Assembly (NCBI GenBank): GCA_963169045.1
Contig: CAUJDF010000103.1
Span: 62,001-126,000 of the forward strand
Direction of reading: 5' to 3'
Origin: Myxococcota bacterium
GTDB lineage: Bacteria > Myxococcota_A > Bradymonadia > UBA7976 > UBA1532
Length of the DNA stretch: 64,000 bases
This document shows, in pieces, positions 46,833 through 60,309 of this stretch (position 1 is its first letter; each line of letters begins with the position of its first letter). Made by a program: the position numbers and the translations under genes. The notes under the pieces are model-generated. The model had not been told where the DNA came from. It worked only from the letters and a program-made list of their open reading frames with translations, and made no database searches.

Positions 46833-47363
46833 CTACGCGAGCGTCAGCCGCCGCAGCGCGCCCTCGTACGTCCGGCTCCCCACCGTCACGTACAGCGCGC
46901 CCTCGGTGTGCACGACCGTCCAGTCGTTGTGGCGCTCGACGGGCACCGACAGGATCGAGCGCGGGATCGACACGAGCTCGATGTGTTCGGCGCGATGGAT
47001 TCGGTGTCCCTGCAGGCTGCGCAGAAACACATCCACGTCCTTATAAGTATAGATGCACATCCGGCCGCTGGCCTTGCTCGCCTTATGGATGCGCTCGGGC
47101 GAGGGGCTGCCGACGTCGATCCACAGGCGCGTGCCACCCATGGGATCCGGGACGTGCAGCGCGGGCTCATCGCCGACACACACGCCGGGTCCCATCTGCA
47201 GGCCGTCCTCGAGCTCGAGGCAGTATGCGATCACCCGCGTGACGAGCGAGTCGACGGTCTCGGACGGGTGCTGCGCCACGCGCAGGTCGAGGCGCTCGTA
47301 GACGCCGCGGTCCACGTCGGAGAGGTCGATCGTGAAGCGGTGCAGGGTGGGGGTCAGGGCCAT
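46833..47363 (-). CDS. yaeQ: YaeQ family protein
   Basis: The 176-aa cytoplasmic protein starts at ATG 47363. It matches YaeQ along its length: an N-terminal IDLSDVDRGVYERLDLRVAQ, AQHPSETVDSLVTRVIAYCL, GDEPALHVPDPMGG, LWIDVGSPSPERIHKASK and a closing TVGSRTYEGAL. YaeQ has a restriction-endonuclease-like fold and was first reported as a suppressor of RfaH loss; its biochemical role is unsettled. Its start lies 10 bp inside the end of the kinase-FGE gene, so its translation is coupled to that gene. Confidence 0.92.
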   Translation of the reverse strand: MALTPTLHRFTIDLSDVDRGVYERLDLRVAQHPSETVDSLVTRVIAYCLELEDGLQMGPGVCVGDEPALHVPDPMGGTRLWIDVGSPSPERIHKASKASGRMCIYTYKDVDVFLRSLQGHRIHRAEHIELVSIPRSILSVPVERHNDWTVVHTEGALYVTVGSRTYEGALRRLTLA

Positions 47364-49999
47364 TCGTCTCGCTCGCCGAGGTAGCCGCGCGCGAGGCGCA
47401 CCCCGATGAAGACATTGCGGTAGTTGGGGACGAGGCTGCTGCGCGCGGCGGCGCGGATGTTGTTCGCCTGGGCGCGCCACGAGCCGCCGCGCACCGCGCG
47501 CGCCGCCTGGGGGTAGGCGACGGCCTCGTCGACGGCATCGGGGACGATGGCGTGGCCCTCGACGACGAGCGGGCCGGCGGCGTTCCAGCGGTCGAGGCAC
47601 CAGTCCTTCGAGTTGCCGGCGAGGCCGCGCACGCCGTAGGGGCTGCAATCGACGGGGTGGTCCTCGACGGTGGCGGGGAAGCGGCGGCCCGGCGCGCTGT
47701 CGCCCATCGAGCACCACGTCGGATCGGCGAAGTCGCCCCACGGGTACCACCGGCCGTCGGCGCCGCGCGCCGCCTTCTCGCGCTCGAGCTCGGCGGCGAG
47801 ACGCCACGGGCGGCCGGTCTGGGCCGCCGTCCACGCGGCGCAGGCGACGGCGCTGAACCAGTCGACCATGTAGATGGGCCACCCGAGGTCCCACATGTCG
47901 CCGTCGGCGTCGGGGCGCAGGTGGAAGTGCCCGGACGCGTCGCGGCCGAAGATGATCGCGTTGCGGTGGTCGGCGTCGCCGGCGCGCTCCCGCGGCGCGA
48001 ACATCACCGCCTCGCCTTCGCGGCCCTCGTCGACGAGGCCGTTGAGGAAGTCGAGGTACTCCGCCACCGTCACCGGGAAGCGCCGGATCACGAACGGGCG
48101 CACCCAGACGCGCCCGGCGGGCAGGCTGAAGTCGGCGCGCGCGTCGCCGCCGCACTGGAACCACCCCGCGGGCACGTAGCAGTCGTCGGGGTCGAGCGCG
48201 CCGAGCCGCGGCAGGTGGATGGGGAACGGCTCGCGCGCGCCGGGCGGGATGCCGTCCCAGTGCTCGAGGCGACCGATCTGCACCGGGTAGCGCACCTCGC
48301 GCCGGCCCGGGGCGCGCAGCACGACGAGGTAGCTGCTCGGCGGCAACGTGACCATCGAGAGCGGGGTGCGGCCGAGCGCGCGCACGAAGCGCGGCGCGAG
48401 GCGGCGCCCCTCGACGTCGTAGCGGTACAGGTCGGCCTCGGCGCCCGGCGGATCGGTGACGAGCGTGAGCGCGCCCGTGCCGAGCAGCCAGGCGGAGTGG
48501 CGCGCGCGCGCCGGCGACTCGCTCGGCAGGGCGTCCACGTGGCGGCGCAGGAGCACCTCGCTGCGGGCGGCGGCGCGCAGGTCGCGCGCGCGCTCCGCCT
48601 CGGCGTGGGCGGCGCGGTGGCGGGCGGCGAGCGCCTCGTGGGCCTCGGGCAGGTCCGGCGCGTGCGTCAGCGCGCCGCGCAGCTGCGTCTCGGCGTCGAG
48701 ATCGAGCAGATCCGCCTCGCGATCGAGGTCCGCCGCCTCGTCCTCGAGCGCCCAGAGCGGCGCCTTGTCGGCCTCGGGCGCCCACAGCGGCAGCTTCGCC
48801 AGCGCGGCGGCGGCCTCGGCGCGCAGCGCGGCGGCGCGCGCCCGCCGGGCCGTGACGTCGGGCCCGATCGCCGCCGCCGCGGCGACGAGATCGAGCGCGC
48901 GCGAGCGCCCGCTGTCGCCGTCGAGCCACGCCCCGATCTCGTCGCACAGCACGTCGGCCGCCTGCGGGCGCGCCTCGGGATCGGCGGCCATGCACCACGC
49001 CGACAGCCGCGTCAGCTCGACGGGGAGCGGCGGCCCCGGCCGGTCCGGCCGCGGCGCGTTCATGCCGAGCGGCGTCGGCGGGCCGTTGAGCACCTGCATC
49101 ACGATGCTCATCGCCGACGGTCCCACGTACGGCGGCCGTCCCGACAGCAGCTCGTGCAGGATGGCGCCGAGCGCGTAGACGTCCGTGCGCTGGTCGACGC
49201 GCGTGCCGCGGGCCTGCTCCGGCGCCATGTAGGCGGGCGTGCCGGTCACGCGGCCGGCCAGCGTCATGCTCGGATCGCTGGCGGAACGGCTGATGTTGAC
49301 GCCGGGGCCGGTCGTGCCGGTGCCGGCGATGCGCGCGATGCCCCAGTCGAGGACGAGCACCTCGCCGTACGCGCCGAGCATGACGTTGTCGGGCTTGAGG
49401 TCGCGGTGGACGACGCCGCGCGTGTGCGCGTAGGCCACCGCCTCGCACACCTTCTTGAAGGCCTCGACCACGCGGCGGAACGTCCAGCCGTCCTCGGACG
49501 GGCGCCAGCTGTCGCCGGCGGAGGCCTCGTGCAGGCCGCGCACGACGTCGCGCAGCGTGCGGCCGCGCACCTCCTTCATGGTGAAGTAGACGCGCCCGTC
49601 GTCGAGCACGCCGATCTCGTGCACCGGGACGATGCCGGGGTGCTGCAGCTGCGCCGTCGCCTGCGCCTCGCCGCGGAACCGCCGCAGCACGTGCGGCCCG
49701 GTGACCGCCTCGGGCCGCAGGATCTTCATGGCCATCTCGCGGCGCAGGTCCGGATCGCGCACGCGCCGCACTTCGCCGGTGCCGCCGCGCCCGATGAGGC
49801 CGAGATCTTCGTACCGGCCGAGCATCGCGCCCGGCGGCTGAATCTCGTTCATCGTCGCGTCGGGCGACGACTCGTCGACGATGGCCATGGTGTCGGTGCC
49901 GCCGCTCGCGACGAGCGCCTCGACGAGCGCCCGCAGCGCGCGCGCGTCGTCGGGGCTCAGGCCCCGATCGCGTGCGAAGGCGGCGAGGGCGTCGTCCAT
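47354..49999 (-). CDS. Serine/threonine kinase fused to formylglycine-generating-enzyme-like domain
   Basis: The 881-aa protein starts at ATG 49999 behind GGGGGA. Residues about 63-350 are a Hanks-type kinase: Gly loop IGRGGTGEV, ATP lysine K92, catalytic loop HRDLKPDN (D200), the metal motif DWG (218-220, in place of DFG), and GTPAYMAPEQARG. Residues 350-600 are Ala/Arg-rich helical, including an ADL-rich coiled region and a PEGA-like strand segment (TPLSMVTLPPSSYLVVL). From about 605 comes an FGE-sulfatase (SUMF1-like) domain ending in RAVRGGSW...RAAARSS and FIGVRLAR. No transmembrane helix is evident. Such fusions are common in Myxococcota and Planctomycetes and may modify or bind partner proteins. 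Confidence 0.92.
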   Translation of the reverse strand: MDDALAAFARDRGLSPDDARALRALVEALVASGGTDTMAIVDESSPDATMNEIQPPGAMLGRYEDLGLIGRGGTGEVRRVRDPDLRREMAMKILRPEAVTGPHVLRRFRGEAQATAQLQHPGIVPVHEIGVLDDGRVYFTMKEVRGRTLRDVVRGLHEASAGDSWRPSEDGWTFRRVVEAFKKVCEAVAYAHTRGVVHRDLKPDNVMLGAYGEVLVLDWGIARIAGTGTTGPGVNISRSASDPSMTLAGRVTGTPAYMAPEQARGTRVDQRTDVYALGAILHELLSGRPPYVGPSAMSIVMQVLNGPPTPLGMNAPRPDRPGPPLPVELTRLSAWCMAADPEARPQAADVLCDEIGAWLDGDSGRSRALDLVAAAAAIGPDVTARRARAAALRAEAAAALAKLPLWAPEADKAPLWALEDEAADLDREADLLDLDAETQLRGALTHAPDLPEAHEALAARHRAAHAEAERARDLRAAARSEVLLRRHVDALPSESPARARHSAWLLGTGALTLVTDPPGAEADLYRYDVEGRRLAPRFVRALGRTPLSMVTLPPSSYLVVLRAPGRREVRYPVQIGRLEHWDGIPPGAREPFPIHLPRLGALDPDDCYVPAGWFQCGGDARADFSLPAGRVWVRPFVIRRFPVTVAEYLDFLNGLVDEGREGEAVMFAPRERAGDADHRNAIIFGRDASGHFHLRPDADGDMWDLGWPIYMVDWFSAVACAAWTAAQTGRPWRLAAELEREKAARGADGRWYPWGDFADPTWCSMGDSAPGRRFPATVEDHPVDCSPYGVRGLAGNSKDWCLDRWNAAGPLVVEGHAIVPDAVDEAVAYPQAARAVRGGSWRAQANNIRAAARSSLVPNYRNVFIGVRLARGYLGERDEWP

Positions 50000-50019
50000 T
50001 CCCCCATGATGGAGCGCGT

Positions 50020-50274
50020 TCAGCGGGGACGCCAGATTCGAGCCGCGGCACGGCGGGCGTAGGCGAGGCGGGCGGCCGGGCCCTGACGGGGAGGCTCGCC
50101 GCCGCAGAGTCTGCGGCTTCGCCTCGGGTAGCGCCGCACGAACCAGCGGATGAGCTCGAGGCGCTGCGCCTCCTCTTCGGGCGTCGGCGGGACGGCGAGC
50201 GCGGCCTCGAACTCTTCGGGCGAGAGCACGCGGTTGGCGTCGGCTTCGATGCGGGCGCGGCGGTCGTCGGTCAT
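50020..50274 (-). CDS. Small hypothetical protein
   Basis: The 84-aa protein starts at ATG 50274, overlapping the stop of the tiny upstream frame (ATGA). Sequence VLSPEEFEAALAVPPTPEEEAQRLELIRWF, split here, is amphipathic helical, followed by WFVRRYP and a basic tail with RLAYARRAAARIW. The segment between (RRSRRLCGGEPPRQGPAA) looks like an insertion. I do not recognise the family. The pair with 50271-50387 has the size and coupling of a two-component small module, of toxin-antitoxin type at most as a guess. Confidence 0.5.
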   Translation of the reverse strand: MTDDRRARIEADANRVLSPEEFEAALAVPPTPEEEAQRLELIRWFVRRYPRRSRRLCGGEPPRQGPAARLAYARRAAARIWRPR

Positions 50275-50387
50275 TCGCCGAACGCCCGGCGGATGCTCTC
50301 GAGGAGGCGGATGTCTTCGACATCCTTGGCGCGGTGGGCGAATCGCTTCGTCGCGATGTCGAATTCGCTCGCCTCCATGGCGGCCAT
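50271..50387 (-). CDS. 38-codon ORF, probable C-terminal remnant
   Basis: This frame runs from ATG 50387 (or 50378) to TGA 50273-50271 and is coupled by ATGA to the next gene. The product EFDIATKRFAHRAKDVEDIR with LLESIRRAFGE is well formed for a protein C-terminus, and the AKDVEDIRLLE element resembles the end of small nucleotidyltransferase-like proteins that carry a K-D-x-x-D motif. No upstream coding part survives before the divergent CHAT gene at 50447. It may be a decayed gene or a real short peptide. Confidence 0.35.
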   Translation of the reverse strand: MAAMEASEFDIATKRFAHRAKDVEDIRLLESIRRAFGE

Positions 50388-50410
50388 GGCGCCACGGGGT
50401 GCCGTGGAAC

Positions 50411-50439
50411 TCGACCGCGCGGGCGGCGTCGCGTACGGA
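50411..50439 (+). promoter_or_regulatory. Candidate leaderless promoter of the CHAT operon
   Basis: TCGACC (50411-50416), 17 bp, TACGGA (50434-50439), then 7 nt to the ATG at 50447. No Shine-Dalgarno sequence is present. Same geometry as before 22006, 43396 and 60397. Confidence 0.4.
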
Positions 50440-50446
50440 TGACGCG

Positions 50447-53152
50447 ATGCGACTCCTCGTGCTGGCGCTGCTGTGCTGCGCGGCGTGCACGCCCGAGCGG
50501 GCGGCGGCGCCGGACGCGGCCGTGTCGGCGCCGCCGCCGGACATGGTGCTGCTCGGGCACCGCGCGCTGCGCGACGAGGGCGGGACGCTCGTCCCGGTGT
50601 TCGACGCCGAGTCGATGCCGGTGGTGCGCGTCGAGGGCGCGGCGACCCGCCTCGCGCTCGATCCCGTCGCGCCGTTCGACGCGGAAGTGCGCGGAAAGTG
50701 GACGTTTCTCCGCGCACGGGGCGCGGCGCCGCCGCCGGGCGCCGGCACGCTGCGCGTGCTCGCCGGCGGGCGCGTGCTGAAGACGTGGCCGGTGCGATGG
50801 GCGGCCGCGCCCGAGACGCTGCCGGCGCTCGCGCCGATCGCCGGGCTGCGGCGCGCGAAGAAGTCGAGGGAGGCGCTCCAGGCGCTCGACACGGCGCTGC
50901 CGGCGATGGACGCCGAGGCGCGGCACTGGGCGCTGGCGGAGCGGGCGCGGCTGCTCTGGGCGCTGGACGCGGGCGAGCGGGCGACCGAGGCGTGGGCGGC
51001 GGCGGCGGACGCGGCGCGCGCCGCGAGCGTGCCGTCCGAGGAGAGCCGGCGCCTGAGAGCCGCGGCCTACACCGCGCTCATGCGTCGCCAGCTCGCGACG
51101 GCGCGCCAGCTGCTGGCCCGGGCCGAGCCCGTGGAGGCCGGTCTCGACGACCCGCGCGGCCGCGCCCGCCAGGACTACTACGCCGGCCTCCTCGCGCAGA
51201 AGCTGGGGGACTACCGCGAGGCTTCGCTGAGGCTCGAGCGCGCGGTCCGCCTCGCCACCGAGACCGGCGCCGACGCCGACCGGGTGATGTTCACCGAGAT
51301 CCTCGCCGACCTGTACCAGGAGCTCGGGCGCCACCTGGACGCGCTGCGGCTCATCGGCGAGCTTCAGCGCGAGGGAGCGGCCGGCGTCGAGGATCCGGCC
51401 ACCCACGCGCGGTTCCTGTTCAACCGCTGCTGGATCGAGATGCGCGCCATGGCCGAGGGCGCGATGCCCGCGGACTGGCCGGGCGTCCGGGGGCGCCTCG
51501 AGTCGGTGCTCGAGCGCGCGCGCGCCGCGAAGGATCGGCTCACGGAGGCCGAGACGATCGTCAACCTCGCCGAAGCGGCGCGCCTGGCGGGCGACGTCGA
51601 AGAAGCGCGGCGCTGGCTCGCCTCGTTCGAGTCGCTGAACGACCGCGCCGACCGCAGCTCGCGGCTCTTCGCGCTGGCGCTCGGCGCCGAGCTGCTCCTG
51701 GCCGGGGGCGAGACGAAGCATGCGCGCGACCGCTTCGAGACGGTCCTCGCCCTCGACAGCGACGCGTCCGACGCCACGTGGCGCGCCTGGTACGGCATCG
51801 GCCGCGCCCTGCGCGCGGACGGGCAGGCGGCGCGCGCCCTGGACGCGTTCCGGCGGGCGCTCGCCGAGCTCGACCGCCTCGGGCGCCGGACCGGCGTCCA
51901 CCGCGCGCGCGCCTCGTTCTTCGCCGACCGGCGCGGCCTCGTCCAGGACACCGTCGCGCTCCTGCTCGAGCGGGGGGACGTCGCCGGCGCCTTCGCGACG
52001 GTGGACGCCTCGCTGTCGCGGACCGTCCGCACCGTGGAGCGCCCGCTGCTGGCCTCGGGTCTCGACGACGCCCGGGCGGCGCGCTGGTCCGCCCTGTCCA
52101 CGGCCTACCTCGCGCGCCGCGACGCCTGGGAGGCCCTCGAGCGCGAGGCCGGGCTCTCCGCCGGGAGCGCCCGCGAGGCGGTGGAGGCGAGGGTGGAGGC
52201 GGCGCGGAGCGAGGCGGCGCGGTCGCTCGACGAGGCCCTGGTGTTCCTCGAGTCGACGGCGCCCGCCCCCTCGGCAGCCGTCGACGTCGGCGCGCTCGGG
52301 CGCGCGCTCGGCCCGGACGAGGCGCTCGTCGAGTTCGGGCGGATCGGCGAGCGACACGTCGGGTTCTGGGTGCAGGGGGGCCGCGTCGAGCACGCGTTCG
52401 TCGCGCCCGACGCCCCGCTCGCGCCCTGGGCATCGCGCACGGACGGCCTCGCGCACCTCTACGTCGTCGACGGCCTGCTGCCGGAGGCGGCGACCCTCGG
52501 CGCGGCGCCCGGCGTCGGCGGGGTGCCGCTGGCCGCGCGCTTGTCCGTGAGCCATCTGCCGCACGCGGCGCTCCTCCTGCGTCCGGGCACGGCGGCGCCC
52601 GGCGCGCCGCTCGTCGTGGCCGATCCCGGCTTCGACCTGCCGCACGCCCGCCTCGAGGGGCGCGACGTCACGGAGCGCCTGACCGGCGCCCGGCTGCTCT
52701 CCGGCGCCGACGCCACCCGGGCGCGCGTGCTCGAGCAGGCCACCGGGGCGCGGGTCTTCCACTTCGCCGGTCACGGGGTGCTCGACCCCGGGCAGCCCTG
52801 GGACGCGCACCTGCGCCTCGCCGGCGACGAGCGCCTGACGCTCGCCGACGTCCTCGTGGCGCGCCTGCCGCTCGGCGTGGTCGTGCTCAGCGGCTGCGAG
52901 ACGGGCCGCGCCGCCGCGCTCAGCCGTGTCGAGTCGCTCGGGCTCCCCGCGGCCTTCCTCGTCGCCGGCGCCCGCGCCGTCGTCGCGACCGATCGCGAGG
53001 TCCCCGACGACCAGGCGCGCCGGTTCGTCGCGCGGTTCTACGCCGCCGGCGGCACGGAGCGGCCCGGCCCCGCCTTCCGGCAGGCCGTCGCCGAGACCCA
53101 CGCCGCCGGCGAACCCGTCTGGAGCGCGTTCCACCTCTTCGGCCGACCCTGA
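50447..53152 (+). CDS. TPR-CHAT caspase-like protease lipoprotein
   Basis: The 901-aa protein starts at ATG 50447 with a signal peptide and lipobox (LALLCCAAC), so it acts outside the cytoplasm. Residues about 130-540 are TPR-like helix pairs (RQDYYAGLLAQKLGDYREAS, ADLYQELGRHLDAL). The last 330 residues are a CHAT domain (clan CD peptidase, separase/caspase fold) with the catalytic His in FHFAGHGVL (H776) and Cys in VVVLSGCETG (C817), followed by GLPAAFLVAGARAVVAT. The protease is expected to cut target proteins after sensing through the TPR part. It is first in a unit with an anti-sigma-like protein, a subtilase and a sigma factor. Confidence 0.92.
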   Translation: MRLLVLALLCCAACTPERAAAPDAAVSAPPPDMVLLGHRALRDEGGTLVPVFDAESMPVVRVEGAATRLALDPVAPFDAEVRGKWTFLRARGAAPPPGAGTLRVLAGGRVLKTWPVRWAAAPETLPALAPIAGLRRAKKSREALQALDTALPAMDAEARHWALAERARLLWALDAGERATEAWAAAADAARAASVPSEESRRLRAAAYTALMRRQLATARQLLARAEPVEAGLDDPRGRARQDYYAGLLAQKLGDYREASLRLERAVRLATETGADADRVMFTEILADLYQELGRHLDALRLIGELQREGAAGVEDPATHARFLFNRCWIEMRAMAEGAMPADWPGVRGRLESVLERARAAKDRLTEAETIVNLAEAARLAGDVEEARRWLASFESLNDRADRSSRLFALALGAELLLAGGETKHARDRFETVLALDSDASDATWRAWYGIGRALRADGQAARALDAFRRALAELDRLGRRTGVHRARASFFADRRGLVQDTVALLLERGDVAGAFATVDASLSRTVRTVERPLLASGLDDARAARWSALSTAYLARRDAWEALEREAGLSAGSAREAVEARVEAARSEAARSLDEALVFLESTAPAPSAAVDVGALGRALGPDEALVEFGRIGERHVGFWVQGGRVEHAFVAPDAPLAPWASRTDGLAHLYVVDGLLPEAATLGAAPGVGGVPLAARLSVSHLPHAALLLRPGTAAPGAPLVVADPGFDLPHARLEGRDVTERLTGARLLSGADATRARVLEQATGARVFHFAGHGVLDPGQPWDAHLRLAGDERLTLADVLVARLPLGVVVLSGCETGRAAALSRVESLGLPAAFLVAGARAVVATDREVPDDQARRFVARFYAAGGTERPGPAFRQAVAETHAAGEPVWSAFHLFGRP

Positions 53153-53210
53153 AAAGGATCGCCGGGCGCCTTGCGTACGAAGCGAAAGAAGAGGTAGGAG
53201 CGGAACGCCG

Positions 53211-53984
53211 ATGACTGCCGACCCGCCCGATCCCGACGGCATCGACCGCGTGCTGGCCGGGTTGCCGACACGCGCGCCGCCGCCGGACGAGCCGCACGGC
53301 GACGACGGCGAGCTCGTCGCGCTGCGGGCGGGCACGCTTTCGCCCGACGCCGCCGCCCGCCTCGAGGCGCACCTGGCGCGGTGCGCCGAGTGTCGCGCCG
53401 TCCTGCGCGCGCTGGCGCGGCCCGTCCCCGACGCGATGCTCACCCGCGCCGAGGGCGCCGTCCTGCGCCGGCGCCGCTGGCCGTACGCCGTGGTGGGCGG
53501 CCTGCTCGCCGCGGCCGCGGCGGCGGCGATCGTGCTCGTCGGGCCCGACGTCGCCGACCGACCGCTTCCGCCCGAGTACGGGCTCACCGTCAGCGGAGGT
53601 CTGCGCGAGAGCCGCAGCGACCGTCCGGCGTCCCTCCGCTTCCTGCCCGACAGCCGCGTGCGGATCGATCTGGCGCCAGCGGCCGAGCTGCGCGGCGAGG
53701 CGCCGTCGGTCGCGGTGTTCGTCTCGGTGCCCGGCGGTCCGCTCCAGGCCGTCGAGGCGAGCGTGCAGCGCGGCGGCGGCGGCGCGCTGCGCGTGGAGGG
53801 GGTCGCACGCGACCTCTTCGGCGAGACGCCGGGGCCGCGTACGCTGCACGTCGCCCTGGCGAGCGAACCGGCGGCGCTGCGGGACCTCTCCGGCCGCGCG
53901 CCCGAGGCGGCGCCCGGCGTGCGGTGGCTCGAGGCGAAAGTCGAATACTTGCGGGACGTTCCCGACGCGGAGGTGCCCCGATGA
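53211..53984 (+). CDS. Zinc-finger transmembrane anti-sigma-like protein
   Basis: The 257-aa protein starts at ATG 53211 behind AGGTAGGAG. Its cytoplasmic N-terminus has the zf-HC2/ZAS signature H54-x3-C58-x2-C61 (AHLARCAEC) found in anti-sigma factors that mask ECF sigma factors. One transmembrane helix (residues 90-111, WPYAVVGGLLAAAAAAAIVL) leads to a strand-rich outside domain of about 145 residues (ESRSDRPASLRFLPDSRVRI). That topology allows an outside protease to trigger release of the inside sigma factor. Its stop overlaps the next start as ATGA, coupling it to the subtilase gene. Confidence 0.85.
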   Translation: MTADPPDPDGIDRVLAGLPTRAPPPDEPHGDDGELVALRAGTLSPDAAARLEAHLARCAECRAVLRALARPVPDAMLTRAEGAVLRRRRWPYAVVGGLLAAAAAAAIVLVGPDVADRPLPPEYGLTVSGGLRESRSDRPASLRFLPDSRVRIDLAPAAELRGEAPSVAVFVSVPGGPLQAVEASVQRGGGGALRVEGVARDLFGETPGPRTLHVALASEPAALRDLSGRAPEAAPGVRWLEAKVEYLRDVPDAEVPR

Positions 53985-56347
53985 CGCGGGCGGTGGGACT
54001 GTTGTGCGCCGCGCTGGCGCTGGGTGGCTGCGAGTGGCTCCGCGGGGGCGGACGCGACGAGGGCGACGGCGAGCCGCCCGACCCGGGGCCGTCCGTCGAG
54101 GCCGTCGTCGAGCCGGTGCTCTCACCGGAGGCCGGCGACGGGCACCAGCGCTTCTACGAGGTGCGCTTCGTCCAGCGCCGGGAGGATCCGCGCATCGGCG
54201 GCGTCGACGGCCAGTTCCCCGCGCCGGCGCTCCCGCTGCTCGACGTCTGCCGCAACGACCGCTTCTTCGTGCACTTCGCCGAGGACGAGTGGCCCGCCGA
54301 GGTCCTCGCCGCCGACACCTTCGACGAGCAGCTCGCGGCGCTCCTCACGCGCGCGGTCGAGCCGAACGTCGGCGAGTGGTTCGACCGTCCGGCGCCGGGC
54401 GACGAGACGCTGCACGTCGACGCGGCGTTCCTCTGCGAGGCGGTGGGCACGATCGCCGACGACTCCGAAGACGCCTACGTCGCGCTCACGGGCAGGGCCG
54501 GCGAGCTCAACGGCCGCCGCATCCGGGTCGGGCGCGTGTGCGGCTTCGGCCCGCAGGCGGTCGAGGGCGCCGCCGGTCCGGTCGTCGACGCCGGCCCCCT
54601 GCTGCGCCGGTGGCACCTGATCCGGGCGGGCGCCGAGGTCGTCGACCCGCCGGCGTTCGCCGCCGCCGACGTGCTGCTCGTCGACACCGGCGTCGAGCCC
54701 GGGGTCGCCGCGGCGCTCGAGGTCGAGACGCTCGGCGCCGCGCCGGGGGCCTCCGTCCACCACGGCACGGCGATGGCCCTGCTGCTGCGCCAGCTCGTCC
54801 CTCCGGGCGCCGGTCGCCTCGTCTCGCTCCCGGTGTTCGACGCGTCGGGCCAGAGCACGCCCACGGTGCTCGCGCGCGCCCTCGAGCGCGGGATGCGCTC
54901 GCTCGGCGACAGCGGGCAGCCGCTCATCGTCAACCTCAGCCTCGGCTGGCCGCCCGAGCTCTCGCTGCCGCGCGTCCTCTGGGCCGGCGACCCCAAGGCG
55001 CCCGCCTGCCAGGTGCTCGAGGACGGCATCGGCGAGGAGGTGCGCTACGCGCTCGCCCACGCCGCGGAGTGGCTGGGCCGCCCCGTGCTCTCCGTCGCCG
55101 CGGCGGGCAATCGCCCCGGCGGCCACGCCGTCGGCGCGGGCATGTTCGGGAGCGGGTTCGCCGTCGACGCGGCCGCGGCGACGACCTGCGCGCCCGGCGG
55201 ACCGTCGCCGCGCTGGTTCTTCCCCGGCCAGTGGGGTCTCGACACCGCCGGCGCCTGCCCCTGGGGTCGCCGTCCGGGCCCGCTCGCGCTCGCGGTGGGC
55301 GCCGTCGACGCCGACGATGCGCCCTCGACGCTCTCCGTCGACGCCGAGCCGCCGCTCGTCGCGCCCGGCCAGAACGTGATCGCGTGGAGCGACCGGGTCG
55401 CGCCCGCGCCGGCGGCGCTCCCCGCCTGCGGTCCGGCCGACACGGACGCGCCCGACCTCGTGCGGCTGCCGATGACCGTCTCCGGGACGTCGGTGGCGGC
55501 GGCGCTGACGAGCGGCGTCGCCGCGCTGGTGCAGGCGGAGGCGATCGAGCGCCTCGGCGCGCCGCTCGAGGGCGACACGCTGGCCCGGCTGATCGGCCTC
55601 ACCGCCACGCCGCTCGGCCGTCCGGGCATCGGGGGCGCGAGCGTGCAGCGCGTGTCGCTGTGCCGCGCGCTGACCGCGCTGCGCGCCTGCGCGCCGCTCG
55701 TGGCGTGCGTCCGGGCCGGCGGCGACTGCGACGTCGAGCTCGACACGTGCTCGTTCCAGCCCTGCCCGGAGCTTCAGCCGTTCCCCACCGAGCTCGAGGC
55801 GGACCCGCTCGCGGCGCCGGCCTGCCGGGCCGACGACGTCTCGCCGATCGACGTCGCGCCGCTCGCCGCGCCCGACTGCCACGGAGCCGATCCGGCGCGA
55901 TGCCCGTACCTCACGAGCGAAGCGGGGCCCGTGTTCGACCGCTACTCCGTGGGACACCTGGGACCGCAGCCGGCGCTGCCCGGTTGTCCGGATTGCTACA
56001 TCTTCTGCAACAGCGGCGGCAGCCTCGACCTGTACCTGCGGCTCAACACGTCGCTGCCCACGACGACGCGCTTCCGCGGCGCATGGCTGCTCACCAAGAA
56101 CAGCGCGGGGGTCTCCTCGACCCTGACGCTCGCCGCCCCCGGCGTCGCACCCGCGCTCACGGACCTCCGCACGTGGCGCCCCGGCGCGATCATCAAGATC
56201 ACGGGCATCGCCGGCTCGCGCACGTCGCTCGCGCCGATCCCCGGCGGCTGCTTCGGCGGCCAGGGCACGCTGATCACCGAGCTCTCGACGACCTCGAGCC
56301 TCACCTACGTACGCGACTACTCGGCCCTGAACGTCGTCCGGCGCTGA
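53981..56347 (+). CDS. Subtilisin-like (S8) serine protease lipoprotein
   Basis: The 788-aa protein starts at ATG 53981 (ATGA overlap) with signal peptide and lipobox (LALGGC). A 210-residue N-terminal part without clear match could be a sensor or prodomain. The S8 triad is D235 (DVLLVDTGVE), H261 (VHHGTAM) and S504 (SGTSVAAAL), with the oxyanion Asn in AAAGNRPGG. The D-H spacing is shorter than in subtilisin, and long inserts rich in Cys lie between His and Ser. The final 170 residues form a strand-rich Cys-containing domain. It ends with TGATG, its stop sharing one base with the sigma factor start. Confidence 0.88.
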   Translation: MTRAVGLLCAALALGGCEWLRGGGRDEGDGEPPDPGPSVEAVVEPVLSPEAGDGHQRFYEVRFVQRREDPRIGGVDGQFPAPALPLLDVCRNDRFFVHFAEDEWPAEVLAADTFDEQLAALLTRAVEPNVGEWFDRPAPGDETLHVDAAFLCEAVGTIADDSEDAYVALTGRAGELNGRRIRVGRVCGFGPQAVEGAAGPVVDAGPLLRRWHLIRAGAEVVDPPAFAAADVLLVDTGVEPGVAAALEVETLGAAPGASVHHGTAMALLLRQLVPPGAGRLVSLPVFDASGQSTPTVLARALERGMRSLGDSGQPLIVNLSLGWPPELSLPRVLWAGDPKAPACQVLEDGIGEEVRYALAHAAEWLGRPVLSVAAAGNRPGGHAVGAGMFGSGFAVDAAAATTCAPGGPSPRWFFPGQWGLDTAGACPWGRRPGPLALAVGAVDADDAPSTLSVDAEPPLVAPGQNVIAWSDRVAPAPAALPACGPADTDAPDLVRLPMTVSGTSVAAALTSGVAALVQAEAIERLGAPLEGDTLARLIGLTATPLGRPGIGGASVQRVSLCRALTALRACAPLVACVRAGGDCDVELDTCSFQPCPELQPFPTELEADPLAAPACRADDVSPIDVAPLAAPDCHGADPARCPYLTSEAGPVFDRYSVGHLGPQPALPGCPDCYIFCNSGGSLDLYLRLNTSLPTTTRFRGAWLLTKNSAGVSSTLTLAAPGVAPALTDLRTWRPGAIIKITGIAGSRTSLAPIPGGCFGGQGTLITELSTTSSLTYVRDYSALNVVRR

Positions 56348-56988
56348 TGCTGTTCGCGCTCCTCGCCGTCCTCGCGGCGGCGCTCCTCGCCGCCGACGAC
56401 CCGCTCGCCTTCGTCCGCCGCGCGCTCGGCGGCGACGGCGGCTCGCTGCGGGCGCTCGTCCGCCGCCTCGTCCCCGTGATCAAGGCGCGCACCGACGTCT
56501 TCCTCGCCGCGCGCCCCGGCCGCCGCATCGGACCGCACGGCGCCGACGACCTCGTGCAGGACGTGTGGCTCGCGCTCATCAAGGACGGCGGCCGTCTGTT
56601 GCTCGCCTGGGACCCGGCGCGCGGCATGACGCTCGAGGGCTACGTCGGGCTCGTCACGAAGCGCGAGCTCTGGGGCCGCGTCCGCCAGGAGACCGCCGGC
56701 AAGCGCGGCAGCGGTCTGCGCGCCGTCGACCTCGACGACGTCGACGCGCCGGCGGCGCACGACGTCGAGGCCGAAGCCATCGGCCGAGACCTCGCCCGCA
56801 GCCTGTCCGACCACCTCGAACAGCAGCTCCCGGAGCGCGGCCGCCTCGTCATGCGCTACCTCTACACCGACCAGTGCTCGCCCGCCGAGGTCGCCGACCT
56901 GCTCGGCGTGAACCTGCAGGTCGTCTACAACTGGCAGCACAAGATCCGGCAGCTCGCCCACGCCTTCCTGAGCGCCTCCGCGGCCTGA
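56347..56988 (+). CDS. ECF-type sigma factor with hydrophobic N-terminus
   Basis: The 213-aa protein starts at ATG 56347 within TGATG. Region 2 is seen in RRALGGDGGSLRALVRRLVP and DDLVQDVWLALIKDGGRLLL (the DLVQDVW motif is diagnostic), with YVGLVTKRELW completing it. Region 4 is QQLPERGRLVMRYLYTDQCS, then PAEVADLLGVNLQVVYNWQ, a helix-turn-helix. It belongs to the group of ECF-like factors common in Myxococcota. The first 17 residues (MLFALLAVLAAALLAAD) are strongly hydrophobic, which is odd for a cytoplasmic sigma factor. No GTG, TTG or ATG gives a shorter start before region 2. Confidence 0.88.
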   Translation: MLFALLAVLAAALLAADDPLAFVRRALGGDGGSLRALVRRLVPVIKARTDVFLAARPGRRIGPHGADDLVQDVWLALIKDGGRLLLAWDPARGMTLEGYVGLVTKRELWGRVRQETAGKRGSGLRAVDLDDVDAPAAHDVEAEAIGRDLARSLSDHLEQQLPERGRLVMRYLYTDQCSPAEVADLLGVNLQVVYNWQHKIRQLAHAFLSASAA

Positions 56989-57090: not shown

Positions 57091-60000
57091 ATGCGCACGA
57101 AAGGTCGCATTGCGCTCGGCGCCATCGCACTGATGGCATGTGATCCCACAACGAGCACGGATGAGTCGCCCGCCACCGGGACGCTCGAGGCGAACCTGCG
57201 CCTCCCCGACGACGTCTCGATCGGAGGCATCCGCCTCGACGTGTACGACGGCGCGCTCGTCGTCGAGAGCCGCACGCTGACCCCGGAGCGCCAGCCCATC
57301 CCGGGCACCGGCGACGTCACGATGGGCGGCGATGTGTTGATGGCGCTGCCGCCGGGCACCTACCGGGCGGTCGCCACGGCGCTCGACGACCGGGGCGAGC
57401 CGAGTGAGATGTGCCGCCCCGCGTCGGCCGAGGCGGAGGTCCGCGCCGGCGCCACGAACGAGATCGTGCTGCTCGTCCCGTGCACCAGCGACGGCACCGG
57501 CGGCCTCGACGTCGTCGTCGGCGTCGACCGCGCGCCGGTCATCACCGATCTGCGCGTCGTGCCCAGCAAGTTCACGCAGACCTGCCGCGCCGTCAGCATC
57601 TTCGCCCCCGCGACCGACCCCGACGGGCAGCCGCTCGACTACACGTGGGAGATCGTCTCGTCGCCCGAAGGCGCGACGGGGCGCCTGCGCGGCGCGGACG
57701 GCGTCGCCCAGTTCGGCACCCAGGATGCCGGCGACTACACGCTGCGCGTCTCGGTGCAGGGGCCGTCCGGCGAGCCGGCGTCGCTCGAGTTTCCCATCCA
57801 CGTCGAGAAGGGGGAGGGCGACTGCGACGCCGACCGCGACCAGGACCAGGTGCCCGACCTCGTCGACAACTGCTCGCTCCTGCCCAACCCGGACCAGGCC
57901 GACAGCGACGACGACGGCATCGGCGACGTCTGCGCGGAGGGCCCGCTCCGCATCTCGTTCGCCGTCAATCCGCAGCTGCGCCCGGCCCGCGACGTCGTCG
58001 TCGACGGCAACCAGCGCCAGCGCCCCGTCGCGCGCATCATCGGCCCCGAGGCCGGCAGCGCCGACTTCATCGCCGACGAGGTCGTGCTCGCCGGGGCCAC
58101 CCAGGGCCAGCTCGATGCCTTCCTCGCCCGCTGGAACGGGCAGGTCGTCGGCAAGCTCGACCTGACCGACCTCGGCGCGCCGAACGCCGGCCCGTTCTAC
58201 CTCGTGCGCGTCGACGCGGCGGCCGCCGATCCCGCGGAGCTGCCCGCGCTCGCGCGCAAGGCGGACCGCCTCGGCCGCGGCGCCCACGAGGTGTCGAGCG
58301 AAGAGGGCCTGCGCCTGCTCACCGTCGCGGCCAAGGCCACGGTCGAGGACGGGCTGACCGTCGCCGCCAACTGGCTGCTCGAGGGCGACGACGTGTGGGG
58401 CCGCTCCACGGCCGAGGCGCCCGCCGGCCCCGGCGGCTACACGCCCGACGCGTTCGGCTGGCCGTTCCTCTCCCGCGGATCCACTCAGGATTTCGGCGTC
58501 GCCGAGGCCTGGCGCCTGCTCGAGGCCAGCGGCCGCGACGCCAACCGCGTGAGCATCGCCGTGATCGACGGCGGCTTCGTCGCCAACCCGGACCTGCCGA
58601 CCGCGCGCATCTTCCCCGCCGGCGCGTTCGGCCGCCCCAACAGCTATGACTGCTCGGGCGGCAACCCGTGCCCCTGGCACGGCACCACCGTCGCCGCCAC
58701 CGCCGCCGCCGTGCCCGACAACGGCTATGGCATCGCCGGCTCGGGCGGCCTCGTCGCGGATCCCATCCTCATCCAGACGCCTGCGCCCGACTTCTTCGAA
58801 TACATCCGCTTCGCCGTCTCGACGCTGCCCGCGGCGGCCGGCGCGGGACCGCGCATCCTCAACATCAGCGCCTCGGCGGACATCCCGGCGGTCCCCTGCG
58901 CCTTCGCCTGCCCCGCGCTCGACCTCGTCTCGATGGGCCTGCGCGCGGCCGGTGTGCTGACCGTGGCGTCGGCCGGCAACAATGGCCGCGACGTGGACCG
59001 CCGCGACTGCCTCTGGCCGTTCGGCTGCTGGGAGTCGGTCGGCGTCGTGCCCTGCGAGCTCAACAGCGTGATGTGCGTCGGCGGCCTCGCCTGGGACAGC
59101 AACGACCGCGACGAGAACTCCGCCTATGGCACCGAGGCCGGCGGCGGCACGGTCGATGTGTTCGGTCCCTACACCGTCTGGACGATCCTGCCGAACGCGG
59201 ATGGCAGCGGCCCGCCGAACCAGGCCGTCACGCGGAGCGGCACCAGCTACTCGTCGCCGTTCGTCGCCGGCTGCGCCGCGCTCACCTGGGCCGCCAACCC
59301 GCGCCTCGACGCCAGCGGCGTGGAGCGCCTGATCCAGAGCAGCGTCCGCACCCGCGGCCTCGGCAACGACGCGCGCAACAAGGTCGACTGCCACGGCGCC
59401 GTCCGCGCGGCGCTCGGCGGCGACGCGCCGCCCTTCGTCCGGATCAACAACCCGGTGGACGGAGACCGCTGGCTGCGCGACGGCCGCGCCCTCGCCCTCA
59501 CCGGCCTCGCCCACGACGAGGAGGACGGCGTCCTCACGCCCGAGTGGCGCAGCGACCGCGACGGCGCGCTCGGCCGCGGGGTCACCGTCCTCGTGCCGCG
59601 CCTCTCGATCGGTCGCCACGTGATCACCGCCACCGTGCGCGACAGCCGCGGCTGGCGCGTCAGCGACCACGTCACCATCGACGTCGGCGTGGCCGCTCCG
59701 CCGGTGTCCATCGTCTCGCCCGCCGAGGGCGCCGCCATCCCGGTGAGCCAGCGCGTCTTCCTCGACGCCAACTCGAGCGACTTCGGCCGCATGCCCCCGC
59801 TGCCCGACGCCAGCCTCGCCTGGTACGTCGACGCCCGCGGCGGCGCGCCCGTGGCCCGCGGCCACCGCGCCGAGATCCCGGGCGACCGCCTCGCGCTCGG
59901 CGCGCACACGCTCATCCTCGTCGCGACGTACGAGGGCGGCGAGGTCGAGGTGCGACGCAACATCCGCACCATCGCCAACCCGGCCAACCGCCCCCCCGAG

Positions 60001-60309
60001 GCGCGCATCCTCGCGCCCGCCGACAGCAGCATCGTGTGGGGCGACCTGTACATGCGCGACGGGACCTACGCCGAGGTCGAGCTGCGCGGCGAGGCCCGCG
60101 ACGCCGAAGACGGCGCCGTCCCCGACGCGTCGGTCGTCTGGACGGACACCATCGACGGCCGCGCGCCCGTCGAGATCGCCCGCGGCCGCAGCGCCACCGT
60201 CCGCCTGCGCACCGGCGTGTTCCACACGCTGACGCTGACGGTGACCGACGCGAACGGCAACGTCACGCGGACGAGCGTGCGCGTGTTCGGCGCCGACATC
60301 CCCTACTGA
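57091..60309 (+). CDS. Large subtilisin-like serine protease lipoprotein with TSP3 unit and Ig-like domains
   Basis: The 1072-aa product starts at ATG 57091 after CAGGAG. Signal peptide and lipobox (ALMAC) lead into an Ig/carboxypeptidase-regulatory-like domain, a PKD-like domain (about 150-245), one TSP3 unit ([14 protein letters not shown]), then a prodomain-like segment (about 290-420). The S8 domain (about 465-780) has the Asp in SIAVIDGGF, the His in [10 protein letters not shown] and the Ser in [13 protein letters not shown], so it should be active. Three Ig-like domains follow. It lies 102 bp after the sigma factor gene on the same strand and may be co-transcribed or a regulon member. 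An inverted repeat CCTGCGT/ACGCAGG (57026, 57076) overlaps its ribosome binding site. Confidence 0.9.

Follow-up and report, generated by a model that had tools for sequence, protein, structure and literature searches.

We analysed a window of 64,000 nucleotides from a Myxococcota bacterium (GenBank assembly GCA_963169045.1, contig CAUJDF010000103.1, positions 62,001 to 126,000 of the forward strand), in which four same-strand genes encode a TPR-CHAT protease, a membrane anti-sigma factor, a subtilase of family S8 and an extracytoplasmic function (ECF) sigma factor (Table 1). This set looks like a genuine, conserved and little-studied signalling or alarm module, and synteny and sequence co-divergence support treating it as a functional unit. 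We read it, with a probability of about 0.5, as a proteolysis-gated ECF sigma switch in which a DdvA-type anti-sigma factor is split over two genes, the CHAT protease cuts the anti-sigma factor, and the subtilase is an accessory. The genes are strongly linked; we infer that the anti-sigma factor is cut, where the cut falls and what the subtilase does.

The CHAT and anti-sigma genes are spaced by a gap of 58 base pairs (bp), the anti-sigma and subtilase genes share a 4-bp ATGA overlap, and the subtilase and sigma genes meet in a 1-bp TGATG overlap. After training on the window, a gene caller based on codon usage recovered the same four genes, in agreement with an initial annotation of this stretch whose coordinates, strand and junctions prove exact. 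All residues which that annotation had named for the zinc motif of the anti-sigma factor (H55-x3-C59-x2-C62), the CHAT dyad (H776/C817) and the S8 triad (D235/H261/S504) are present as well.

Scanning the neighbourhoods of relatives with family profiles, we found all four families together in at least 21 Myxococcota loci from many genera. Complete modules occur four times in the window's own genome (the window, L051, L012 and L014), elsewhere at L041, L042, L085, L043, L044, L050, L072, L087, L091, L045, L086 and L127, and, more distantly, at L095, L098, L110 (an Archangium metagenome-assembled genome), L115 and L119. This count is a lower bound because the S8 hidden Markov model missed subtilases in L112, L118 and L120, which the A2 profile placed beside CHAT. 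Five loci (the window, L085, L087, L095 and L098) have CHAT, anti-sigma, subtilase and sigma in this order and on one strand; the remaining complete modules are rearranged, some of them divergent. In single-sequence searches (38 relatives) the sigma, anti-sigma and subtilase families were almost confined to the window's taxonomic family; among 284 genomes sampled from the phylum, the S8 profile was found in 17 and the anti-sigma profile in 33, and a sigma-family scan of GTDB contigs returned 19 loci labelled Myxococcota, Polyangia, Myxococcales, Archangium or 'bacterium'. The catalytic residues of CHAT and subtilase are invariant despite overall identities of ~22–54% to the window proteins, and this invariance and the recurrence are far beyond chance. 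The initial annotation had proposed a coupled unit, to be given up if related genomes lacked conserved synteny; the recurrence at 21 or more loci and the co-divergence described below bear the proposal out. Within the literature collection searched, no paper on the exact four-gene set was found.

A hierarchy among the components is apparent in 28 sigma/anti-sigma pairs from the window's family that were found via those two proteins alone. CHAT and subtilase are both present in 14 of these, CHAT only in six (L017, L018, L073, L074, L081 and L083) and neither protease in eight (L075–L080, L082 and L084), and a subtilase without CHAT occurs in 0 of the 28; pair L088 was left out of the count, a contig edge falling inside its TPR-CHAT-like gene. 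The chance of all 14 subtilase modules falling among the 20 CHAT modules is ~0.001 by a hand calculation that is uncorrected for relatedness. Since the subtilase occurs in these modules only alongside CHAT, we regard the sigma and anti-sigma factors as the core, CHAT as the next component, and the subtilase as an addition to CHAT modules. Another protease beside the pairs that lack CHAT was considered and rejected, the neighbours tested being cytochromes, kinases, a histidine kinase and regulators.

Partners from the same module also diverge together: their distance matrices correlate with r of 0.69–0.83, and re-pairing within genomes matched the observed correlation 0 or 1 times in 2000. Over complete modules, the partial correlation of CHAT is 0.50 with anti-sigma and 0.52 with subtilase, and that of subtilase is 0.10 with anti-sigma and 0.46 with sigma. 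Apart from the last value these would fit a chain from subtilase to CHAT to anti-sigma, for which they are only suggestive. They bear on the model of the initial annotation, in which CHAT and subtilase each cut the anti-sigma factor directly, at different sites, so that either one raises the alarm. Both enzymes are exported, lie in operons with the anti-sigma gene and keep an intact active site, as that model would have it, but six modules have CHAT without a subtilase and none the reverse, co-divergence of subtilase and anti-sigma vanishes (partial correlation ~0.1) after CHAT and sigma are accounted for, and no second conserved loop site is seen near the membrane. Two proteases acting at the same step thus appear highly improbable to us.

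The CHAT protein opens with a signal whose lipobox ends at C14, followed by an immunoglobulin (Ig)-like domain (residues 33–118), a TPR solenoid (~129–480) and the CHAT domain (~614–901), for which the Pfam CHAT score is 92.3 bits against a cut-off of 24. A structure search with the TPR-CHAT model returned DdvA as the top solved match, followed by separase and Csx29; DdvA is the best CHAT match at the sequence level too, and the His and Cys are retained at the aligned DdvA positions. By its modelled fold and its His/Cys dyad the protein is a CHAT protease of predicted activity. With 20.4 bits where the Csx29 model requires 300, the protein was rejected as a Csx29. The initial annotation had good grounds for linking TPR-CHAT proteins with anti-sigma control: the best solved match is itself an anti-sigma factor, and Csx29 is a protease that cleaves one (PMC10028731). 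Locus L044, a complete module, has a second TPR-CHAT gene (L044:339-3050) 992 bp away from its sigma gene, so a single module can hold two CHAT proteases.

Both proteases had been called lipoproteins, and both carry a lipoprotein-type signal at the start in the window, where the subtilase copy bears a lipobox; across the subtilase relatives, however, it is export that is conserved and not lipid anchoring. Export signals are widespread, and a crude rule, which relies on correct start codons, assigned a lipobox-like site to 21 of 34 CHAT proteins and to 18 of 38 subtilases. The subtilase scores 31.9 bits with Pfam Peptidase_S8 (cut-off 21.8), and its family profile matches subtilisins and mycosins. 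An Asp/His/Ser triad and an oxyanion Asn within the S8 domain identify it as an S8 subtilase, with activity predicted. Subtilase relatives at L046 and L048 have neither anti-sigma nor CHAT nearby, and the family therefore exists outside modules too.

The AlphaFold model of the anti-sigma factor contains a helical anti-sigma domain in the cytoplasm, a single transmembrane helix (residues 92–110) and ~147 residues outside that include an Ig-like domain (123–246), much as had been foreseen from the letters alone. Pfam zf-HC2 scores 26.7 bits (cut-off 22.2), and the family profile matches the anti-sigma domains of 3hug and ChrR and, weakly, DdvA. With H-x3-C-x2-C in the modelled helical domain and a single transmembrane helix after it, the protein has the make-up of a zinc-binding anti-sigma (ZAS)-type membrane anti-sigma factor. 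The initial annotation was right about the motif in the window protein; among relatives it is kept by some and gone in about half (for example L042:11520-12281 and L085:8866-9645), with the remainder of the protein retained, so zinc binding is neither needed for the module nor defining of it. We rejected a known sensor fold for the outer domain, whose matches are only weak and generically Ig-like.

Within this outer domain, the stretch 131–140 is the least ordered, with a mean predicted local distance difference test (pLDDT) score of 72 between blocks of 96 and 95. Across 40 anti-sigma relatives, position 135 is Arg in 38 and Lys in two, and the residue that follows is Ser, Gly, Ala or Asp in all 40. 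Within the caspase-like clan, enzymes like separase and gingipain R cleave after a basic residue, which makes R135-S136 a natural candidate for the cleavage site.

The sigma factor falls slightly under the Pfam cut-offs as a single sequence (Sigma70_r2, 20.9 against 24; r4_2, 21.3 against 25.7), and its family profile matches a solved ECF sigma factor over regions 2 and 4. Having these two regions only, and resembling known ECF proteins, it is assigned by sequence to the ECF class. The N-terminus reads MLFALLAVLAAALLAADD and includes a hydrophobic leader; an alternative start that would remove the leader was rejected, as there is no other start codon before codon 43. Positions 2–13 contain no charged residue in 15 of 23 close sigma relatives, compared with 2.3% of windows from other parts of these proteins, and the leader is missing in the distant module sigmas L095, L096, L110, L112 and L115. 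Unlike an export signal, the leader has no basic start, so it is likely a short tether in the membrane that leaves the sigma domain on the inner side. This unexpected, conserved and uncharged feature recalls pro-sigmaK of the pro-sigmaK/SpoIVFB system, which has a hydrophobic N-terminal leader at the membrane (PMC11486902), as the window sigma is predicted to have, but, unlike it, is not an ECF sigma factor.

Table 1. Features of the four-gene unit, in window coordinates
Feature	Position	Strand	Basis
TPR-CHAT lipoprotein, 901 amino acids	50447..53152	+	Pfam CHAT 4.8e-26; AlphaFold model pLDDT 90.6; solved folds DdvA, separase, Csx29
CHAT catalytic His776	52772..52774	+	Invariant in 25/25 (first set) and 32/32 (wider set) CHAT proteins
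CHAT catalytic Cys817	52895..52897	+	Invariant in 25/25 and 32/32 CHAT proteins, same sets
Membrane anti-sigma factor, 257 amino acids	53211..53984	+	zf-HC2 above cut-off; AlphaFold pLDDT 86.5; profile matches
Zinc motif H55-x3-C59-x2-C62 (HLARCAEC)	53373..53396	+	Sequence; missing in about half of relatives
R135-S136, candidate cleavage site, ~25 residues outside the membrane	53613..53618	+	Low-confidence loop and conservation; putative function
Exported S8 subtilase, 788 amino acids	53981..56347	+	Pfam S8 above cut-off; family profile; invariant columns
Subtilase triad and oxyanion residues D235, H261, N377, S504 (span)	54683..55492	+	Conserved in 21/21 relatives
PxP...CPxC motif, unassigned C-terminal domain of the subtilase family	55964-55996	+	Invariant columns
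ECF-type sigma factor, 213 amino acids	56347..56988	+	NCBIfam sigma70-ECF 9.4e-8 (below cut-off); family profile against solved ECF sigma 8.6e-13
Hydrophobic sigma leader, residues 2-16, LFALLAVLAAALLAA	56350..56394	+	Start-codon check; charge counts in relatives
Near-invariant sigma region 4 segment Q191-R201 (QVVYNWQHKIR)	56917..56949	+	Alignment A1, invariant or nearly invariant columns

The window unites known themes in a new arrangement. One of them is represented by DdvS–DdvA of Myxococcus xanthus, presumably the Myxococcus pair behind a type III-B CRISPR-Cas system. Like DdvS–DdvA (PDB 8ROT, 8RW5), the window has an ECF sigma factor, a transmembrane anti-sigma factor and a TPR-CHAT part of the same fold; whereas DdvA holds anti-sigma and TPR-CHAT in one polypeptide, the window distributes them over two genes, makes the TPR-CHAT a lipoprotein and adds a subtilase. 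Judged from sequences and models, no one chain here joins an anti-sigma domain, a transmembrane helix and TPR-CHAT as DdvA does, and the TPR-CHAT part resembles that of DdvA in its fold. Once the anti-sigma factor DdvA is removed or inactivated, its ECF sigma factor DdvS is active (PMC4374960), and a review describes a type III-B CRISPR-Cas system driven by one Myxococcus ECF/anti-sigma pair (PMC8156234).

Type III-E Craspase (Csx29, Csx30 and CASP-sigma) likewise combines a TPR-CHAT protease with an anti-sigma factor that controls an ECF-type sigma factor, and Csx29 cleaves Csx30 within a small flexible loop (PMC10028731). Craspase is cytoplasmic and is switched by Cas7-11 with target RNA, in contrast to the export signal of the window CHAT and the membrane location of its anti-sigma partner. 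For ECF54 (with an example in Geodermatophilus), a conserved gene context of subtilase and CHAT has been described, regulation by proteolysis proposed, and an anti-sigma factor reported lacking (PMC8999054); the window likewise has subtilase and CHAT genes but, in contrast to that report, a membrane anti-sigma gene beside the sigma gene. In the RseA/DegS/RseP and RsiW systems a single-pass anti-sigma factor is cut first in its outside part (PMC8103513), as we propose here, but the first cutters DegS and PrsW are unrelated to the window proteases, and neither CHAT nor subtilase is involved.

In the proteolytic switch that we favour, the cytoplasmic domain of the anti-sigma factor would, as its family suggests, hold the sigma factor at the inner membrane, and the exported TPR-CHAT protein would detect an envelope signal via its Ig and TPR domains. 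CHAT would then cleave the outer domain of the anti-sigma factor, most likely after the conserved R135, and an M50 site-2 protease encoded in the genome would finish the anti-sigma factor and free the sigma factor; M50 site-2 proteases occur in the window genome, none of them linked to the four-gene unit. The subtilase, rather than cutting the anti-sigma factor on an equal footing with CHAT, would be an accessory working on CHAT or through it, for instance as its activator, and the hydrophobic leader may keep the sigma factor docked at the membrane until release. A further-reaching version, which we think unlikely, has the sigma factor doubly locked by its own leader and the membrane anti-sigma factor, with an extracytoplasmic cascade, in which the subtilase activates the caspase-like CHAT protease, cutting after the conserved Arg/Lys and intramembrane proteolysis freeing both proteins.

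Several points weigh against the proteolytic switch. Eight modules in which CHAT and subtilase are both absent from the neighbourhood conserve R135 equally well, so this residue may be structural or serve a trans-acting protease, and no essential residue was found in Csx30, so that the Csx29 cut needs no particular residue (PMC10028731). The CHAT protein is probably attached to the outer membrane or surface and might miss a target in the inner membrane. The partial correlations are drawn from 19 modules, and the value for sigma and subtilase is at odds with the proposed chain. CHAT could also be a mere sensor, because the CHAT part of DdvA belongs to the anti-sigma factor itself: as a sensor or co-inhibitor, TPR-CHAT would bind the anti-sigma factor, a change of shape would release the sigma factor, and any proteolysis would be aimed elsewhere. 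Such a role would agree with the position of TPR-CHAT as the outside part of DdvA, with the co-divergence of anti-sigma and CHAT, and with the conservation of R135 where CHAT is not nearby. It is harder to square with a His/Cys dyad that is invariant in 32 of 32 proteins and would be superfluous for pure binding, or with Csx29, a solved relative of the same fold that is an active anti-sigma protease, and we find this role for CHAT rather doubtful.

Both proteases might instead be outputs of the sigma factor, made after its release by another route and linked to it only via self-regulation of the operon. Sigma/anti-sigma modules without a protease exist, so the pair can work alone; sigma and subtilase co-diverge beyond what the other pairs account for (0.46), and the next gene downstream (57091-60309) is also an exported subtilase. 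Yet the co-divergence of CHAT and anti-sigma persists after sigma and subtilase are accounted for, the fused architecture of DdvA places CHAT in the signal input, and no common promoter motif was found upstream of the module genes, where pair counts were no better than in shuffles. AAC-type -35 elements were not enriched upstream of these genes either. We judge it quite improbable that the proteases are outputs.

The genome that carries the window is 9.0 Mb in size and encodes 15 CHAT domains. The downstream subtilase, which follows the sigma gene after a 102-bp gap, has PKD-like and thrombospondin-3-type repeats, and a relative of its S8 domain adjoins a further module in this genome (L012, 2-1081). 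On the other side, a gene divergent from that of CHAT (47354-49999) encodes a Ser/Thr kinase with a fused FGE-sulfatase-type domain. The 447-bp gap 5' of CHAT holds short minus-strand frames (50003-50446), one beginning MTDDRRARIEADANRVLSPEEFEAAL, that resemble genuine small proteins and matched no Pfam family. The initial annotation had also pointed to defence systems; a PADLOC search with the four module proteins and the downstream subtilase gave no defence-system match, and its kinase matches upstream of CHAT, to the fused kinase gene, are generic protein-kinase matches.

Many CHAT proteases exist outside CRISPR systems, most of them with no known substrate, and the recurrent operon described here offers a concrete candidate substrate. 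If our reading is true, the logic by which the Craspase CHAT protease acts on an anti-sigma factor would extend to envelope signalling, and the reason for a CHAT domain within DdvA would be explained. The known modes of sigma control would then gain a cascade of two proteases and an ECF sigma factor tethered by its leader.

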